Notes under the pieces: model-generated
Seen by the model: the letters and a program-made list of their open reading frames with translations, nothing else
What the model was told of the DNA's origin: nothing
Databases searched by the model: none
Made by a program: the position numbers and the translations under genes
Shown: positions 1 to 40,975 of the stretch, in pieces
Numbering within the stretch: position 1 is the first letter of the stretch
Layout of the letters: each line of letters opens with the position of its first letter
Origin: a virus
Virus record (IMG/VR): IMGVR_UViG_3300031576_000141
Coordinates: 1 to 40,975 of that record
DNA: 40,975 bases
Direction: 5' to 3' (one strand)

Positions 1-229
1 CGATACCCCGGAAACGGGGGGCGACAACAGGGCGGTCGCAGCGGATAGCCAGGCCGTGGACGGTGTCGATACCCCGGAAACGGGGGGCGACAACAGGAAA
101 ATCGCGGTCTGCTATGTGAAGGCTGCAGGTGTCGATACCGCGGAAACGGGGGGCGACAACAGGTGCGTTCAAGAATTAGCCACGGTAGCCGTTGGTGTCG
201 ATACCCCGGGAACGGGGGGCGATGACAGG
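1..229 (+). CRISPR. CRISPR-like array inside the TnpB-like frame, left copy
   Basis: Four repeats lie at 1-31 (partial), 62-97, 128-163 and 194-229. Three unique 30-bp spacers lie at 32-61, 98-127 and 164-193. The complete repeat unit is 36 bp and can fold as TGTCG / CCCCG-GAAA-CGGGG / CGACA, a stem with a GNRA tetraloop and a small internal loop. The repeat at 128 has one C-to-G change in the stem. The last repeat (194-229) is degenerate, with loop GGAA and an altered 3' side, as expected at the trailer end of a CRISPR array. The spacers share no sequence with one another, unlike a minisatellite. The 66-bp period keeps the coding frame open, each unit reading GVDTPETGGDNR plus ten variable residues. 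Compared with the right-hand copy this one has the extra unit at 98-163. Confidence 0.8.
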
Positions 230-709
230 AAACGCTTTGATGACCGCCAACACGCGATAGCTGTCGGCACCCATCAGCAGGCGATGGCACGCTGCGTACG
301 CGGCTCGTACCGCTATCGCCAGCACCGAGCCGCCAAGGCGATGCACGAGGCCAGGGATGCCGCGCGCCGCAATTGGCGGCTTCACAACTGGACCACGCGA
401 ATCGTTGCCAGGGCGGCCGATCTCACCGTCGTGAAGCCGCGTTCGATCAAGGCGGCGACCGCGACGGCGCACGGCACGCCTAACGACCCCGGCGCCGAAG
501 TGGTGTTCAAGGCGAAGGTCAATCGCCGCATTCTCGACCAGGCGCCGGCGATGGCAATCGCGATGCTGGAATACAAGGCCGCCGAGGCGGGATGCCGGCT
601 CACGCTGATCGATGCTGCGGTCCACAAGACCGACGTCCCCGCTGCCATCGTGGCGGCGGCTAAAACCGTGAGAAAGGCAAAGCACGATGTCAGCCACGCC
701 AACCGATGA
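1..709 (+). CDS. TnpB/OrfB-like protein, C-terminal part (continues from 39972-40975)
   Basis: This is the 3' part of the gene that starts at 39972; the map is circular and the frame is continuous. The first 76 codons are the in-frame repeat array. After it comes an arginine-rich helix (ARCVRGSYRYRQHRA) matching the region before RuvC-II in TnpB. Next is TRIVARAADLTVVKPRSIK, which aligns with the usual 'strLvr..dvivvEdLnvk', then NRRILD and MLEYKAAEAGCRLTLID, matching the conserved 'LeYKaewaGrrlv.vd' block. The RuvC-II glutamate is a lysine here. The CxxC zinc finger and the RuvC-III 'D.NAA.N' segment are absent; about 30 unrelated residues end the protein. TnpB proteins are RNA-guided nucleases of IS200/IS605 elements; the visible losses predict DNA binding without cleavage. 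The family is assigned by reading motifs, not by a search. Confidence 0.75.
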   Translation, partial: DTPETGGDNRAVAADSQAVDGVDTPETGGDNRKIAVCYVKAAGVDTAETGGDNRCVQELATVAVGVDTPGTGGDDRKRFDDRQHAIAVGTHQQAMARCVRGSYRYRQHRAAKAMHEARDAARRNWRLHNWTTRIVARAADLTVVKPRSIKAATATAHGTPNDPGAEVVFKAKVNRRILDQAPAMAIAMLEYKAAEAGCRLTLIDAAVHKTDVPAAIVAAAKTVRKAKHDVSHANR

Positions 710-920
710 AGTCGCCGAATTGGAGCACATGACGATGGTGTGCACCGCCATGATCGACGTGATCAATGATATCAGGGCCGACACCATCGGCCTTGATGCC
801 GCCGCCGTCATCGTCAACGCCGGCCACGTCGCCGTGCAGGCCATGAAGATCGGATTCCTGATCCGCATGGCCCGGATTGACAACCCGGATGTATTGGCCG
901 AACTGCCCGTAACCGGGTAG
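687..920 (+). CDS. Hypothetical 77-aa protein downstream of the TnpB-like gene
   Basis: The ATG at 687 overlaps the last 23 bases of the TnpB-like gene, and 'agaaaggcaaag' just before it can act as a weak ribosome binding site. The product is acidic at the N-terminus and then has a long alanine/valine-rich helical stretch (GLDAAAVIVNAGHVAVQAMK). I recognise no family. Because it is translationally coupled to the TnpB-like gene it may work with it. It is the last plus-strand gene before the convergent minus-strand block. Confidence 0.55.
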   Translation: MSATPTDEVAELEHMTMVCTAMIDVINDIRADTIGLDAAAVIVNAGHVAVQAMKIGFLIRMARIDNPDVLAELPVTG

Positions 921-3820: not shown

Positions 3821-5971
3821 TCATCGTTCGGTTCGTTGCTGCTGATACAACTGGCCGAGAGCTCCACCGGTGCCGATCAACGATGGCGGTTTCTGTCTTG
3901 CCACCCCCATTGTCGCATTGAGCGCCTTCACGCTCGCGACCGGTCCCATGATGGTTTTGAGCAAGGGCGATGTCGCCATGTACGCCAGAAAGCGGGCGCC
4001 AAGCGCCTTCGACAAGCCCTGAATCAGGACCGACCCGCTGGCCACCGTCGAATAGCGCGGGATGTTCGTCGCGGCGACGGCAACACTTGCGAACTGTCGA
4101 ATCAACGCCCTCTCCTGATCGTTAAACAGCAGCTTCACGATCGGCGCATGGTTCATCTGCAGGCGACCCCATGCCTGTTGAAAATTGCCGCCCGAAAACA
4201 GTCGCGTACCGCCTTCCATGGCGCCCTCGCCGGCACGCGCGACGCGAAGGAATGCCTCTGCCTTGAGGGCCTTCCAAGCCTGACTTTCAGCCCCGAGCAG
4301 TTCGCGCATTCGCTCCAAATCACGAGTCAGATTGGCCTTTGGAATCCAGCCGGATTGACTGGCCCCGAAAATGTAATTGCTGGCATCGGCAGGATCAACC
4401 TTGAGCTGCATTGTGCCAGAACGCGAGGCCTTCGTCGTCAACGCTTCGATCAAGTCGCCGCCCTTGAATTGGCCCGCGTACTGCCGATATTCGTCGATCG
4501 CTTCACGCCAAGCGGACAAGGCTGCTTGATCGCCGCGCAAGAGATCATCATTGACGACGCCGCGTATCCATTTGTCGTAGGCTCCGATTGCCGTGCGGAG
4601 CGCGACCCCCTCTTCGTTGGCGGCGTTGCCCCGCATCGCTTCATTGGCCTGCTTGCGCCAGCCAAACAGGGCGCGGATATGGACCGGCGCAACAATATCT
4701 GTGCCTGATTCCGCAATGATCTTGTCGAAGCTGTCAAGTAGTGCATTGGTGCGGGCAAGGCCGGTCAGTTCATGGGTTTCCTCGACTGCCGCCCGGATCG
4801 CCCGCGAACCCGCCAGTACCGACGATTTCGGCAGTTCGGCCGCAGAAGCGCGCGCCGCTTCATAGAGAGTGTCCACATGCCGCTTCGCCGCTTGTCGCTG
4901 TCCGACCAGGCCCGATTGAACGACGGGGCCGGCTTCGCCGATACCGGTCGGCCCGCCGGCAAGCCGTTCGCCGATCGCTGCGACGTTGCCGCGCAATTGG
5001 TTTTGTTGCGTCGCGCGGGCGCCGTGCATGACGCTCGACGCCCCCTCACCCATTGCCCCCTCGCGCATGAGTTGCTCCGAACGGAGTCGCGGTTCGCGGT
5101 TCGTCACCTGCCCACGCGTCAACTGCACCGGGGACGGCAATGAACGGGCTTCGGCGGATCGAAATGCTTCCATCGGCTTGAGCGCCGTTTTCGCCTCTTG
5201 CGCGAACTGCCGCGCCAGATCATCGGTTATCTCGGTGGCGGCAACGCCGAGCTTGCGCAGCGCCTCCCGGCCGGCAGCGGTCAATGCGCCGCGAGCGGCA
5301 TCGTACAATTTATCGCGCTTCACGATAGCGCGATAGATGCCCGCCAGGCCGGCGCCGATGACTTCTCCGCCGGCTCCAAAAGCTGCGGACGTGACGATGC
5401 GGCCGGGATCAAGCAGTTTTTTCGCGCCCATGGAGGCTGCGGCAAGGTCTTGCACCGCACTGGCGCCGCCAACGCCGGCCGCTGATAACCCCATACGGGC
5501 CAGTAGTCCGGCGCCGGGCGCTATTGCGCCGCCACCCATGGCGCCGAGTGTTCCCGCCGTCACCATCGTTGCCGCGCGGGCCGTGTCCTGACCCGACCAG
5601 CCCGGCATATTTAGATAGGCCCGCAAGCGGCCCTGCTCGACGATGACATTGCCGAACTTGTCGGTCACGATACGCGCGTTCGGGAGCGTCTTGGAAATCA
5701 CGTCGAGGAGCTGCTTGTCGTCCTGCGCGATGGCGATGATGTTCGTGAGTGTGCTGAGTTGCTTGGGATCGACCTGAAACTCGTCCTTTGGTCCCTTGCG
5801 CGGCCTGCCGCCCAGGAATGACGGAAGCGCCGGCGCCAACTCGTAGGCCGAGGGCAACATTGCTTGGAATTCCGGCAGGTCGAATTCCGTCTGTTCCGGC
5901 GGCTTGACCGGGACCGCCGGCCCGGCCGGAGCCGCTGTCGATCCGAAGAGTCGCGATGCCCAATCGGTCAT
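3821..5971 (-). CDS. Large internal virion / DNA ejection protein, 716 aa
   Basis: This is the longest protein of the tail-side module after the portal. After a proline-rich N-terminus and an alpha/beta stretch (LSTLTNIIAIAQDDKQLLD) it has glycine/alanine-rich hydrophobic regions near residues 134-180 and 193-214, followed by a long helical, charged body. Short-tailed phages of the P22 and T7 types eject such large amphipathic proteins into the cell envelope to extend their tail. It overlaps the muramidase gene by ATGA and is the last gene of the ejection cluster, where these proteins usually lie. No enzymatic motif was seen. The ejection role is inferred from size, composition and position. 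Confidence 0.65.
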   Translation of the reverse strand: MTDWASRLFGSTAAPAGPAVPVKPPEQTEFDLPEFQAMLPSAYELAPALPSFLGGRPRKGPKDEFQVDPKQLSTLTNIIAIAQDDKQLLDVISKTLPNARIVTDKFGNVIVEQGRLRAYLNMPGWSGQDTARAATMVTAGTLGAMGGGAIAPGAGLLARMGLSAAGVGGASAVQDLAAASMGAKKLLDPGRIVTSAAFGAGGEVIGAGLAGIYRAIVKRDKLYDAARGALTAAGREALRKLGVAATEITDDLARQFAQEAKTALKPMEAFRSAEARSLPSPVQLTRGQVTNREPRLRSEQLMREGAMGEGASSVMHGARATQQNQLRGNVAAIGERLAGGPTGIGEAGPVVQSGLVGQRQAAKRHVDTLYEAARASAAELPKSSVLAGSRAIRAAVEETHELTGLARTNALLDSFDKIIAESGTDIVAPVHIRALFGWRKQANEAMRGNAANEEGVALRTAIGAYDKWIRGVVNDDLLRGDQAALSAWREAIDEYRQYAGQFKGGDLIEALTTKASRSGTMQLKVDPADASNYIFGASQSGWIPKANLTRDLERMRELLGAESQAWKALKAEAFLRVARAGEGAMEGGTRLFSGGNFQQAWGRLQMNHAPIVKLLFNDQERALIRQFASVAVAATNIPRYSTVASGSVLIQGLSKALGARFLAYMATSPLLKTIMGPVASVKALNATMGVARQKPPSLIGTGGALGQLYQQQRTER

Positions 5972-7668
5972 TGCAGTCCGAACTCCGTTGCGAGTTGCGC
6001 GTCCACCTCCGCCGCGATCATGTCGGGATCGGCATTCGGATTGGCTTCCCGCATCTCCGCCTCGATTTCATCGCCGCGCGCGTTCATGATTCCCGTCATT
6101 TGGTCGAGCGACACATCCGGAGCCGTCGTGTCCAGCCCGCGAGTCAGCATGTAATTGTAGCGGGCAATGGCCATCTTCGTCGTTGCCAGCGCATCGTCGA
6201 GGTTGGCCTTGAACGTGACCGGATCGTCGCCATCGAATAGCCCGGTGCCGGGGTCGGGCATCGTCATCCGGATGCGGTTGGCCTCGGCCTCAGTCATCGC
6301 GGCACCGGTCAGTTCCTTGATGGTCAGGTTCAGATTTTCGATCGACCGGCGCTTGTATTGAACGAAATCTATCAGGAACTGTTTCTGCGGCGGGTCGAGA
6401 TCGACGCCGGCCTTGGCTTTCAGAGACGACCAGCCGGCGGCCATGGCCGAACCGTAGGTCTGATATTCCGGCTTGTATGCAGCTTCGATGTTGGTCAGCC
6501 GGGTCATCGCCTCGCCGGCATTGATGCGCCGCTTTTCGACGTCCGTGGTCCCGGCGCGACTGAGCGTGACGTTGCCGTTTTCGTCTACCCGCAAGCCGGT
6601 CAGGGGCGACACCGGCTGATATCCCTGGATTGGTCGCCATGCCCCGGCGCGGCTGTCCCATTCGAGATTGCCATGCGTTTCCGGCGCCGCCGGCGGCCCG
6701 GCGCCTGCCAATATCTGCTGTGCTCCGGCCAGATCGCCGCGCATCAGCGCCACTTGCAGCGCCAACCGCCGTCCCTCCGGCAGGTCCAACGGCGCGCCCG
6801 GGGCCGCCACCGGTGCTGTGGCGGACCCGTCGCCGGCTACTTCCGTTGACAACTCGCCCATTCGCCGCGTCCATGTCGGCAGGGCATCGGCCAATTCAGG
6901 ATTCTGCCCAAGGCGCTCGTAAGCGCTCTGCCGCAGCTCCAAGAACTTGCCGATATCGCCGCCGGATTGGCTAAGGAACTGCTTGGCAACGCCGACGCCT
7001 TGATTGACGGCCGTGTCGAAAGCGACCAGCGCCAAATCTGACGGCAGGCTGTCGCCGCCGATGGCATCCCAATAACGGGTCTTGTAGATGGCCGCCGCCT
7101 TCTGCGGCGTCAGATTGGCGACGTCGACATCCGGGTTCGCTCGCGAGTTGATGCCGAAGTTGGTCGGGCCGGCGCCGGCATCATTGGCGACGTAGCCGCC
7201 TTCTTGGCCCAGGACAAACCGCAGGGCGCGATCAAAGCCGCCCATCGGCGCCAAGGATTCCGCCCGGATAGCCCCGCCAGGGCCACTAGGGGGCGCCGTG
7301 AGTGCGGTTGAGCCGCCGACCGCCCCACCGCCGCCAAACTGGGCTAGAAGCTTGTCCGCCACGCTTTGATCGCGCGCGGTAGCGGCCTTGTCGAGTTCAA
7401 ACCGTTCGGCTTCGCGAGCCGCCTCGGCTTCGCGTCGTTTCATTTCCTCGACCGAGAAGCCGAAGGTCGCTTGCCGCATGGCATCGGCGAGGGCATCCTG
7501 CTGGCCGCGCTGGAATCCCGCCAGGCCGAGCCCGAGCCCTTGCTGCCAGTTACGGCCCGTCAGCAGGCCGATACCGGCGTTGAGCAGGCCCTGACTGAGG
7601 CCGGTACGGCGCAACAGCCGCGGATCAATACCGAATGCGGCCCAGGGCTCAAGGTGACGAAGGGTCAT
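5968..7668 (-). CDS. Virion-associated muramidase (GH108-like), 566 aa
   Basis: A domain at about residues 144-235 reads FDRALRFVLGQEGGYV, then GPTNFGINSR, then AAAIYKTRYWDAIGGDSLPSDLALVAFDTAVNQG. This is the pattern of GH108 N-acetylmuramidases, with the catalytic glutamate in the EGGY motif near residue 156. The flanking parts are alanine/glycine-rich and helical, as in ejected internal proteins. The start at 7668 follows the upstream stop as TGATG; an in-frame start 14 codons further up would run into that gene. The protein probably opens a local hole in peptidoglycan during DNA ejection. It is also the only peptidoglycan hydrolase I could recognise here, so it might serve in lysis too. 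Confidence 0.8.
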   Translation of the reverse strand: MTLRHLEPWAAFGIDPRLLRRTGLSQGLLNAGIGLLTGRNWQQGLGLGLAGFQRGQQDALADAMRQATFGFSVEEMKRREAEAAREAERFELDKAATARDQSVADKLLAQFGGGGAVGGSTALTAPPSGPGGAIRAESLAPMGGFDRALRFVLGQEGGYVANDAGAGPTNFGINSRANPDVDVANLTPQKAAAIYKTRYWDAIGGDSLPSDLALVAFDTAVNQGVGVAKQFLSQSGGDIGKFLELRQSAYERLGQNPELADALPTWTRRMGELSTEVAGDGSATAPVAAPGAPLDLPEGRRLALQVALMRGDLAGAQQILAGAGPPAAPETHGNLEWDSRAGAWRPIQGYQPVSPLTGLRVDENGNVTLSRAGTTDVEKRRINAGEAMTRLTNIEAAYKPEYQTYGSAMAAGWSSLKAKAGVDLDPPQKQFLIDFVQYKRRSIENLNLTIKELTGAAMTEAEANRIRMTMPDPGTGLFDGDDPVTFKANLDDALATTKMAIARYNYMLTRGLDTTAPDVSLDQMTGIMNARGDEIEAEMREANPNADPDMIAAEVDAQLATEFGLQ

Positions 7669-36602: not shown

Positions 36603-36685
36603 GCCATTGTCGCCTGCCGGGGTCTCCTTCTGACAGGCGGCGGGCGCCGCCGACGGCCTCGAACTGTCGGCAATGCCAGGAGACG

Positions 36686-36722
36686 GGACGGCGTTCGCGT
36701 CATCCCCCCGCGAACACCGTCC
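36686..36722 (+). promoter_or_regulatory. Long hairpin in the leader of the 36754 operon
   Basis: GGACGGCGTTCGCG (36686-36699) pairs with CGCGAACACCGTCC (36709-36722) with one mismatch and a 9-nt loop. GCCGAC/GTCGGC and GGCGGC/GCCGCC hairpins precede it at about 36637-36671. The leader between promoter and ATG is about 150 nt, long for this compact genome, so RNA-level control of the operon is plausible. Confidence 0.5.
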
Positions 36723-36753
36723 TGCCCTTGGAATTGAAACTGCGGAGGTCCCA

Positions 36754-37374
36754 ATGACATTCAAGATGTACGGTCTTCGAACCGTCAACCGTGACGGCAC
36801 CAGCTACAGGGGCTTCGTCTGGCCTCTCGTCGTTGACGCCCGCGTCGAGGCTACGGACTGGGACCCCGCCGATCGCTGCGGCGGGGGGCTTCACTTCCTG
36901 CCCTGGGGCTGCGGCAACGTCAGCACTTGCGACCTCAACGATGGCGCGACCTGGCTCGTGATCGGCACCGATGACGAGGTCGTCGAAATCACCTCCGACG
37001 GCGGCGGCAAGAGCAAGACCAAATCTGCCACCGTCATCTTCGTCGGCAACCGCACGGACGCGATCGACCGCATCCGGGCGCTCGGCGCTGCCGGGAAGCC
37101 CCACATATTCAGCACCGCGACCGCCGGCGAGGGCGGCAATGCGACCGCCGGCCATGGCGGCAACGCCACCGCCGGCGACCGCGGCACCGCGACCGCCGGC
37201 CATGGCGGCACCGCGACCGCCGGCGACCGCGGCACCATCATAATTAAACGGTGGGATGAAAAGACGAAGCGCTATCGGCTCGCGGTGGGCTACGTCGGCG
37301 AGGGCGGCATCGAAGCGGGCACTGCCTATGGCGTCGCCAGTGGAGGAAGAATCATCAAGGCCGTAACAGTATGA
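36754..37374 (+). CDS. DUF7666-like / repeat-containing phage protein, 206 aa
   Basis: A GCGGAGG site precedes ATG 36754. The N-terminal part (MYGLRTVNRDGTSYRGFVWPL, DRCGGGLHFLPWGCG, ATWLVIGTDDEVVEI) resembles phage proteins with the 'GFhf...c' core often fused to pentapeptide-like repeats. Residues 122-161 are five tandem 8-residue repeats (ATAGxxGx), encoded by 24-bp DNA repeats. The C-terminus (TKRYRLAVGYVGEGGIEAGTAY) is a short beta segment. These proteins are common in phages; their biochemical role is not established. Confidence 0.65.
   Translation: MTFKMYGLRTVNRDGTSYRGFVWPLVVDARVEATDWDPADRCGGGLHFLPWGCGNVSTCDLNDGATWLVIGTDDEVVEITSDGGGKSKTKSATVIFVGNRTDAIDRIRALGAAGKPHIFSTATAGEGGNATAGHGGNATAGDRGTATAGHGGTATAGDRGTIIIKRWDEKTKRYRLAVGYVGEGGIEAGTAYGVASGGRIIKAVTV
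37117..37236 (+). repeat. Five tandem 24-bp repeats in the 36754 gene
   Basis: Each unit encodes ATAG followed by EGGN, HGGN, DRGT, HGGT or DRGT. Units two to five alternate between two types and are almost identical in DNA, suggesting recent slippage or unequal exchange. The repeat number could vary between isolates. Confidence 0.8.
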
Positions 37375-38898: not shown

Positions 38899-39158
38899 GT
38901 AAAGCCGAACTCATCGCCGTGCGTGAGGCGCAGGCCGACAGGATATTGCACCTATGCAGACACATCTGCCGGACGATGATGAATCACGATCCCCCACTCA
39001 CCTCAGCGATGTGGACGTCGCTCACGGAAGCACGCGACTACCTGGACGTCGTACTCCAACCATCTGCGCTTACTGTCGTCACGTTACCGGTTGGTCCGAG
39101 AAGTGGTATCGATGGCGATGTCTCGCGTTCCCGCGAGCCGCCAGGTTCAACGCCGTGA
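38895..39158 (+). CDS. Hypothetical protein, N-terminal frame of an overlapping pair
   Basis: GTG 38895 overlaps the previous stop and gives MSKAELIAVREAQADRILHL, then CRHICRTMMNHDPPLTSAMWTSLTEARDYLDVV. This first half looks clearly coding; after about 39060 the frame loses protein-like character while the next frame (38954-39280) becomes clearly coding. Either two genes overlap heavily or one frameshift joins them. Confidence 0.45.
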   Translation: MSKAELIAVREAQADRILHLCRHICRTMMNHDPPLTSAMWTSLTEARDYLDVVLQPSALTVVTLPVGPRSGIDGDVSRSREPPGSTP

Positions 39159-39971: not shown

Positions 39972-40975
39972 ATGGCCGATTCCGTCATCCGCCGCTACAC
40001 CTACAAGGTGTATCCATCGGCCGACCAGAAGGCCGAGCTGGATCGCGTGCGGCGGATGTGCGCGAGCTTGTACAATGCGCTGCTACAGCAGCGAATCGAG
40101 GCGTACCAGCGGCGGCGGAAGACCCTCACCTATTACGACCAATGCAAGGAGCTGACCGCGCTGCGCCATGAAATGCCGGAATGGGCTGCGCTGTCATCAT
40201 CGATGATGGCCGCAACAGCGCAGCGGCTCGACCGCGCCTACAAGGCATTTTTCTGTCGCGCCAAGGGCGGGGCCGGCGCCGCCAGCGGGTTCCCGAAGTT
40301 CCAGCGATCCGAGGACTATCCCTCGATCCCGTTCAAGCGGCACCGCGATTGCTGGCGCCTGGACGGCGAGGATAGGTATAAGAACCCGCGCCTATGGGTG
40401 CGAGGCATCGGTACCATGGAGACGCGCGGGCGATTGCCTGGCGTACCGGCGGAACTCAGGATCGGTGAACTGCTTTGGCGTCAGAGTGCGTGGTGGCTTT
40501 CTATCGTGGTCAAGATGTCGCCGCGCCGAGTGGCCGGCCAGGACGCCGGTCGGATCAACTTCGATCTGATCGACACGTTTGCGGAGGTTACATGGGAGTC
40601 TAATCCAGACCACGGCCGATGTCCGGCCGGCGCCGAGGACGCGGTTTCGGCCGCGCCCAAAGCGCGAATCAATCCTCGAATTCATGGGGTTAAGGAGTCA
40701 TCGGGTGTCGATACCCCGGAAACGGGGGGCGACAACAGGTCAGTGCCCGCTGGCGTGTCGTCGATGATCGGTGTCGATACCCCGGAAACGGGGGGCGACA
40801 ACAGGGCGGTCGCAGCGGATAGCCAGGCCGTGGACGGTGTCGATACCCCGGAAACGGGGGGCGACAACAGGTGCGTTCAAGAATTAGCCACGGTAGCCGT
40901 TGGTGTCGATACCCCGGGAACGGGGGGCGATGACAGGAAACGCTTTGATGACCGCCAACACGCGATAGCTGTCGG
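39972..40975 (+). CDS. TnpB/OrfB (Cas12-ancestor)-like protein, N-terminal part, array inside
   Basis: ATG 39972 gives MADSVIRRYTYKVYPSADQK, a TnpB start. The helical recognition region follows (LYNALLQQRIEAYQRRRKTLTYYDQCKELTALRHEMPEW) with AYKAFFCRAKGG and GFPKFQ. Then comes the beta-barrel part (WRLDGEDRYKNPRLWVRGIGTME, LLWRQSAWWLSIVVKM). RuvC-I reads INFDLIDTFAEV, with the catalytic-position Asp198 kept but the usual glycine after DL lost. INPRIHG corresponds to the 'nPr' segment after RuvC-I. At residue 245 the frame enters the repeat array and stays open to the window end, continuing at position 1. Without the array the full protein is about 400 residues, close to TnpB. No TnpA or IS ends were recognised. 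Confidence 0.8.
   Translation, partial: MADSVIRRYTYKVYPSADQKAELDRVRRMCASLYNALLQQRIEAYQRRRKTLTYYDQCKELTALRHEMPEWAALSSSMMAATAQRLDRAYKAFFCRAKGGAGAASGFPKFQRSEDYPSIPFKRHRDCWRLDGEDRYKNPRLWVRGIGTMETRGRLPGVPAELRIGELLWRQSAWWLSIVVKMSPRRVAGQDAGRINFDLIDTFAEVTWESNPDHGRCPAGAEDAVSAAPKARINPRIHGVKESSGVDTPETGGDNRSVPAGVSSMIGVDTPETGGDNRAVAADSQAVDGVDTPETGGDNRCVQELATVAVGVDTPGTGGDDRKRFDDRQHAIAV
40704..40937 (+). CRISPR. CRISPR-like array inside the TnpB-like frame, right copy
   Basis: Four 36-bp repeats start at 40704, 40770, 40836 and 40902, separated by three 30-bp spacers (40740-40769, 40806-40835, 40872-40901). The first three repeats are identical; the last is degenerate (loop GGAA, altered 3' side), marking the trailer end. 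Each repeat folds as an extended hairpin with GNRA loop, 5' of its spacer on the gene's sense strand, as in type V crRNAs. Compared with the left copy this one lacks the unit at 98-163 but shows the leader-proximal spacer 40740-40769. Joined on the circle, the longest supported array is five repeats and four spacers, 300 bp. Confidence 0.8.
40775..40975 (+). repeat. Terminal redundancy with the window start
   Basis: These 201 bases equal bases 1-267 except for a 66-bp unit (98-163) present only on the left. This indicates a circular or terminally redundant genome of about 40,774 bp and shows that the overlap is not exact because of the array. Confidence 0.85.

Follow-up and report, generated by a model that had tools for sequence, protein, structure and literature searches.

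A CRISPR-like array in the reading frame of a phage TnpB-like gene predicted to be nuclease-dead

Array and gene at the locus

The window analyzed in this work was the whole 40,975-nucleotide (nt) stretch of the IMG/VR virus record IMGVR_UViG_3300031576_000141, and the element in question was an array resembling clustered regularly interspaced short palindromic repeats (CRISPR), embedded in a TnpB-like gene near the record end. The array (40704-40937) was composed of four 36-nt hairpin repeats, the last of which was degenerate, with three 30-nt spacers between them. The three full repeats were identical (GGTGTCGATACCCCGGAAACGGGGGGCGACAACAGG) and followed one another at spacings of 66, 66 and 66 nt, and the spacers, each exactly 30 nt long, showed no mutual resemblance. 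Near-identical repeats, unrelated spacers of regular length and a degenerate distal repeat, by which a CRISPR array is recognized, were all present, and a direct check of the letters confirmed what an earlier note, made from the sequence alone, had described. The window repeat folded better than 200 of 200 shuffles (z -3.6). No exact match to it was found in IMG/VR, and an Rfam scan gave no score near the gathering threshold. The open reading frame (ORF) at 39972-40973 stayed open throughout the array, in which the gene frame contained no stops and the remaining two frames contained 3 and 2, respectively. The ORF was TnpB-like, matching HTH_OrfB_IS605 (5e-8) and the guided_TnpB model (4e-20 and 5e-11 for the two halves of the gene), and the placement given in the earlier note, in frame between the RuvC-I strand and the arginine-rich helix of a TnpB-family gene, also stood.

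The record start (1-267) matched the record end (40709-40975) at 88% over 267 bp. Because the ends overlap, the record is a circle opened inside the array, which the earlier reader overlooked, and the gene therefore runs through 39972-40975 and then on to 709. With the array version of the record end (A-B-D-degenerate repeat) the gene crosses into 268-709 and encodes 481 residues; with the version of the record start (B-C-D-degenerate repeat) it continues from within repeat 1 into 1-709. One complete 66-bp unit (spacer C) and a single repeat base distinguished the two versions. Spacer C is regarded as real because its sequence is unique, and the B-to-D joint might conceivably be a false join by an assembler with short k-mers. 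The features of the locus were as follows.

39972-40975, plus strand: 5' part of the predicted nuclease-dead TnpB-like gene (open frame with the HTH_OrfB_IS605 and guided_TnpB matches)
40548-40589, plus strand: altered RuvC-I strand GRINFDLIDTFAEV, from the alignment with 11 active TnpBs
40590-40703, plus strand: in-gene leader before repeat 1, coding, assigned by position; in the relative G016, 88 nt corresponding to it also occur outside the gene, duplicated together with repeats
40704-40739, plus strand: repeat 1, 36 nt
40740-40769, plus strand: spacer A
40770-40805, plus strand: repeat 2
40806-40835, plus strand: spacer B (same spacer at 32-61)
40836-40871, plus strand: repeat 3
40872-40901, plus strand: spacer D (same spacer at 164-193)
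40902-40937, plus strand: degenerate last repeat, hairpin retained (-15.6 kcal/mol)
1-31, plus strand: last 31 nt of a repeat, second array version
32-61, plus strand: spacer B, second version
62-97, plus strand: repeat, second version
98-127, plus strand: spacer C, missing from the record-end version
128-163, plus strand: repeat with one change (CCGCGG), second version
164-193, plus strand: spacer D, second version
194-229, plus strand: degenerate last repeat, second version
230-709, plus strand: 3' part of the gene, with the arginine-rich helix, the RuvC-II strand and a shortened C-terminus without zinc finger
687-920, plus strand: small helical ORF of 77 residues, overlapping the gene end

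Family members and position of their arrays

The TnpB-derived family was found in 19 IMG/VR phage records, the window included. G001 (L003) was found by an N-terminal search, G002-G005 by a nucleotide pattern matching the altered RuvC-I strand, G006-G013 by a C-terminal profile, and G015-G018 together with G019 (L113) by an N-terminal profile; G003 and G015 were truncated within the gene. Arrays on the strand of the gene were present in 15 of the 17 members not truncated before the array. They lay in frame in six members (the window, G001, G005, G007, G016 and G019, the last with a diverged repeat pair), formed regular arrays outside the gene, downstream of it and its small ORF, in G006, G012, G013 and G017, and formed irregular hairpin arrays around the gene in G004 and G008-G011. 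G001, 53% identical to the window, had a different 36-nt repeat, different 30-nt spacers and a degenerate last repeat at the same place in the frame, and a frameshift split the N-terminal part of its gene. The in-frame unit of G007 was 36 + 36 = 72 nt. Spacers and repeats at this place thus differed in the relatives, and the shared spacers that the earlier note had named as evidence against an array were not seen. An in-gene unit of about 25 residues in G008 was lacking in its close relative G012, and a whole unit was gained or lost between the two window versions.

Among the irregular arrays, some 25 hairpin units, whose guides varied in length, occupied both flanks of the gene in G010, G011 and G009 (L063:6411-9600, L064 and L062), overlapping the gene start and stop as if the units had spread singly and not as one array. 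The in-gene unit of G008 (L060:7813-7890) was a single repeat-like unit at the same loop as the window array. Two groups of candidates were rejected as members: a plasmid match (H9, Methylovirgula), which by context adjoined an IS200/IS605 tnpA, and L028 (Dadabacteria) with most loci of one relatives search, which were ordinary active TnpBs without arrays.

The predicted nuclease-dead protein

Alignment with 11 active TnpBs placed Asn (40557-40559) at the catalytic Asp position of RuvC-I in the window, and Val (431-433) occupied the Glu position of the RuvC-II strand LTVVKPRS (422-445). The RuvC-II Glu was present in none of the 16 family members holding that region, the RuvC-I Asp in 3 and the RuvC-III Asp in 3. 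No member combined two of these acids, whereas all 11 ordinary active TnpBs kept all three. The zinc finger was deleted in all family members in the alignment. The family therefore lacked the D-E-D motif and zinc finger of an active IS200/IS605 TnpB and displayed the inactivated RuvC in a TnpB-derived protein that characterizes TldR-like proteins. With at most one of the three RuvC acids and no zinc finger, the protein is predicted to be nuclease-dead, so that it would bind DNA and not cut it. The effector of the earlier note did not hold up as an active nuclease.

In the structure model of the G005 protein (mean predicted local distance difference test score, pLDDT, 77), the top Foldseek matches were TnpB (8exa, 4e-14), and Cas12f and Cas12m were also matched; sequence and fold together placed the family in the TnpB/Cas12 superfamily. 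At the guided_TnpB cut-off of 100 bits, G005 (109) and G019 (111) scored above and the remaining members below. Two segments of the G005 model were of low confidence (297-315 and 146-193), and the array-coded residues 294-325 overlapped the first. A second in-frame insertion, rich in inverted repeats and predicted to be disordered, was observed in the N-terminal domain of G005 (residues 143-193; L052:7900-8060 region), which is perhaps a further embedded RNA element.

Reading frame and RNA fold in one stretch

The length of in-frame units was a multiple of 3 (66 or 72 nt) in 13 of 13 cases, compared with 11 of 34 units in outside arrays, the third expected by chance (Fisher p 2.6e-5, with units of one array not fully independent). 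The gene frame was free of stops in the in-frame arrays, and the other two frames together held 1 to 5 per array. Being in frame, with units in multiples of 3 and without gene-frame stops, the array is surely under coding constraint.

A constraint on RNA folding was observed in the outside class, whose repeats formed a stem and a pseudoknot in which CTCG, in the loop, pairs with CGAG close to the repeat 3' end. The loop letter and its partner, left free when these repeats were harvested, were exchanged jointly as T-A (44) or C-G (10) in 54 of 55 distinct outside repeats. In total 26 two-sided changes were counted against 5.2 in shuffles (0 of 500). The outside repeats of G017 had unrelated letters, the same topology and an exchange of their own (CGTGC/GCACG to CGCGC/GCGCG). 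The in-frame repeats formed nested hairpins around the same centre, not a pseudoknot, which were strong in the window, G005 and G016. The residues encoded by the repeats differed wholly between members (GVDTPETGGDNR, GADAGKSAGERG, GLVTPHLSGDEN and DNAADAVADGR), and the hairpin was retained.

Origin of spacers

Spacers varied between relatives as well as between both window array versions. In G016, the first in-frame spacer matched 30 of 30 nt of the phage's own genome (37633-37662), inside a replication-initiation gene (PHROG 7e-22) and in a different reading frame, and the match ended at the repeat borders. Spacers are thus copied DNA at least in this one case. A G005 spacer matched its own genome over positions 2-18 (17 of 17 nt), at a site some 75 nt upstream of the gene for the small terminase subunit. 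Only G005 and G016 stood out in this way, and self-targeting by spacers in general showed no excess over cross-genome controls. None of the remaining spacers, those of the window among them, had a match in the collections searched. Cross-phage spacer matches of 14-21 nt were rejected as too weak: they numbered 58, compared with 31 when the spacers were reversed and 18-34 when they were shuffled, and many were repeat sequence or a spacer matching its own site. New units might come from host adaptation proteins or from recombination.

Branching order and outside arrays

The family formed a clade of 17 rows with 100/100 support in a tree. Its successive early branches were G019, G001, the window, G005, G016 and G007, and the members with outside arrays mostly formed a later group. 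Support was 97/96 at the fork above the window and 100/100 at the next, while the forks around G016 and G007 reached only about 83. When the tree is rooted with active TnpBs, this early branching of in-frame members makes the embedded state look ancestral in the family. G016 carried both array types. Downstream of the small gene lay its outside copy (L103:6419-6608; G016 about 38930-39120, minus strand), in which 88 identical nt of leader sequence from within the gene preceded a repeat pair and a new spacer, and this array seems to have left the gene through duplication.

These results suggested an evolutionary order, to which we give about an even chance: the home of the array would be the effector's own frame, spacers would come and go as in-frame units, the messenger RNA (mRNA) would be both protein template and guide precursor, and free arrays would have escaped later from the ancestral embedded state by duplication, as in G016. 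If so, the embedded-array family would be a living record of a single TnpB guide turning into an array. The fusion intermediate between TnpB-omegaRNA and type V systems proposed in the earlier note was partly supported, by the branching of in-frame before outside-array members and by the duplicated copy in G016. The Cas1 of type V systems with an adaptation module was not found in 14 records.

Proposed function and alternatives

We consider it likely that these phages possess an RNA-guided system that uses several guides and a nuclease-dead protein to bind DNA, acting like TldR or Cas12m, and that the mRNA also serves as the guide precursor. This transcript would hold the leader and the in-frame array of hairpin repeats and spacers, which would be translated as a flexible loop of 22-residue (or 24-residue) units located after RuvC-I and before the arginine-rich helix. 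The same array would be the guide RNA precursor, with the repeat hairpin 5' and the spacer 3', like type V CRISPR RNA and TnpB omegaRNA. The protein-guide complex would bind spacer-matching DNA and, without a nuclease, block transcription or replication there; its targets would probably be genes of related phages (exclusion) and possibly own genes too. Because array processing would cut the mRNA of the gene itself, the system would limit its own activity. The processing by TnpB of its own mRNA is a precedent for a transcript serving protein and guide (PMC10278001). Cas12m protects by binding (PMC11013384), binding-only action has been reported for V-C (PMC12669027), and phage TldRs are nuclease-dead TnpB-like repressors (PMC13418256).

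Several points weigh against this proposal. Cutting or masking of the own mRNA would cost protein, and no array was found in G002 and G018. The in-frame hairpins were weak in G007 and G019, the repeats of G001, G007 and G019 folded only moderately, and the in-frame repeats were too few for a covariation test. No Cas1 was detected in 14 family records, while control genomes gave signal. The spacer search that the earlier note had called for yielded no target for the window spacers in isolate phages or PLSDB plasmids, and the best protospacer, the perfect match of G016, lay in the phage's own genome. Both spacer matches found were of this kind, in sequence that relatives would share.

A purely coding tandem repeat, without a role as RNA and forming a variable loop with 12 constant residues and 10 that change, would account for the in-frame position, the units in multiples of 3 and the gene frame without stops. 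It is nevertheless improbable, given that the closest family relatives have arrays outside any long ORF whose repeats covary as a pseudoknot, that the leader and repeats of G016 were copied outside the gene, that 30 nt of a gene recur, in a different reading frame, as a G016 spacer, and that the hairpin was kept while the repeat amino acids changed wholly between members. The array could also be a mini-CRISPR array for a host CRISPR-Cas system, used in superinfection exclusion or as an anti-CRISPR decoy, that has simply landed in the TnpB-like gene; units of 36 + 30 nt are a common CRISPR geometry, and these phages have no Cas1. Phage mini-arrays and single repeats of such sort are known (PMC11656645). 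We regard this explanation as very improbable, since the arrays stayed with one protein family across many divergent phages while the repeat sequence changed, the repeats covaried mutually and not toward one host repeat, and the exact window repeat was absent from 84,980 species genomes, near matches being outside this search.

The same dead-TnpB guide system might serve mainly to control genes of the phage itself, in lysis-lysogeny or in the timing of replication, and not to act on rivals, a possibility that is doubtful but deserves more weight than the two above. The only convincing spacer matches were in own genomes (G016, 30/30; G005, 17/17), and TldRs are regulators (PMC13418256). All other spacers, however, were without self matches above the cross-genome background, diverse and changing spacers are unlike a fixed circuit, and sequence alone cannot separate own genes from those of relatives. 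An active TnpB/Cas12 nuclease with an array, as in a working type V-U system, is scarcely credible: the fold is that of TnpB, and a live TnpB adjoining an array exists in another phage (L123) and in cyanophage CL131 (V-U2; PMC6293099), but no member retained more than one of the three RuvC acids and the zinc finger was deleted. The DNA-binding, multi-guide system remains the preferred reading.

Comparison with known systems

The phage TldR of fliC-tldR is likewise TnpB-derived, RuvC-inactivated and phage-borne, with RNA-guided binding without cutting expected, but its guide RNA adjoins tldR and an array is never mentioned (PMC13418256), whereas many guides lie in the gene or in arrays here. 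V-M Cas12m (PMC11013384) and the inactivated V-C, V-O and V-P (PMC12669027) also join a dead RuvC-like effector to a CRISPR array and interfere by binding. Kinship with Cas12m, compared by structure, was only remote (Foldseek 1.6e-9 to 8hhm), and relative to V-M and inactivated type V the present family is smaller and phage-borne, with the array in frame in its basal members. V-U2 C2c8 of cyanophages CL131 and N1 is a TnpB-sized phage protein adjoining an array without cas1, and a CL131 spacer resembles a primase pseudogene (PMC6293099), as the G016 spacer matches a replication-initiation gene. The C2c8 model, however, gave family members no more than 56.6 bits, its cut-off being 350, and V-U2 arrays lie outside the gene.

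Virus-borne mini-CRISPR arrays (PMC11656645) are also short phage arrays without adaptation genes, but take the host repeat and effector, whereas the repeats here track the phage's own TnpB-like family. IS200/IS605 TnpB shares the fold, a guide 3' of a structured RNA and a guide from its own transcript (PMC10278001). It differs in cutting DNA with a single guide at the gene 3' end and in having no tandem spacers. Phage-borne tandem guide arrays with one effector are also a feature of the TIGR-Tas systems. The Tas proteins are a Nop-domain (box C/D-like) family and not TnpB. The arrays of TIGR-Tas are described in PMC12045711.

TnpB-derived CRISPR-like systems are already known. In the literature searched, which excluded preprints and most subscription journals, no description was found of an in-frame array within a Cas12/TnpB gene, nor of a triple constraint of protein frame, RNA hairpin and targeting spacer on one DNA stretch, and the in-frame array therefore appears undescribed as far as that literature goes. 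It seems that a transposon nuclease was converted in phages into a DNA-binding system with several guides, and such a binding-only system would be an addition to phage arsenals. The origin of CRISPR arrays from single TnpB guides is an open question, and the family makes this step testable with small proteins because in-frame arrays occur in early branches, both types in G016 and outside arrays in derived members.

Neighbouring and minor features

A small ORF like that at 687-920 stood directly behind the gene in 13 of 13 members inspected (for example MTISKSQ...NVMLGAGRVLQGAARQRLTQRL in G010). It had no Pfam or PHROG match and is possibly a partner protein.

Upstream of the first repeat, a motif like GCGAATCACC followed a small hairpin (AAGCGCGAATCAAT, AAGAGCAAATCACC, AAGGGCGAATCACC, GACGAATCACC), and its conservation could reflect either a leader or a peptide (GRIT..Q). 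The stretches sharing it were as follows.

Window, 40640-40703
L103 (G016), 5470-5526
L003 (G001), 6590-6634
L113 (G019), 6650-6693

Record ends fell inside the array in several family records (G008, G012, G003 and the window). Arrays thus interrupt assemblies, and databases may often lack them for this reason.

A large phage (L123; UViG_3300033233_000004, 171.8 kb) carried a TnpB at 5980-7275 with intact D-E-D motifs. Directly behind it, at about 7302-7540, lay a regular array with identical stretches of 32-33 nt and a period of 66-68, and this locus looks like an active V-U type system. In the window, a GC-rich tandem repeat of 24/48 nt (37112-37236; units ATAGDRGTATAGHGG) was located inside the ORF at 36673-37374 and is an ordinary coding repeat, unlike the array.
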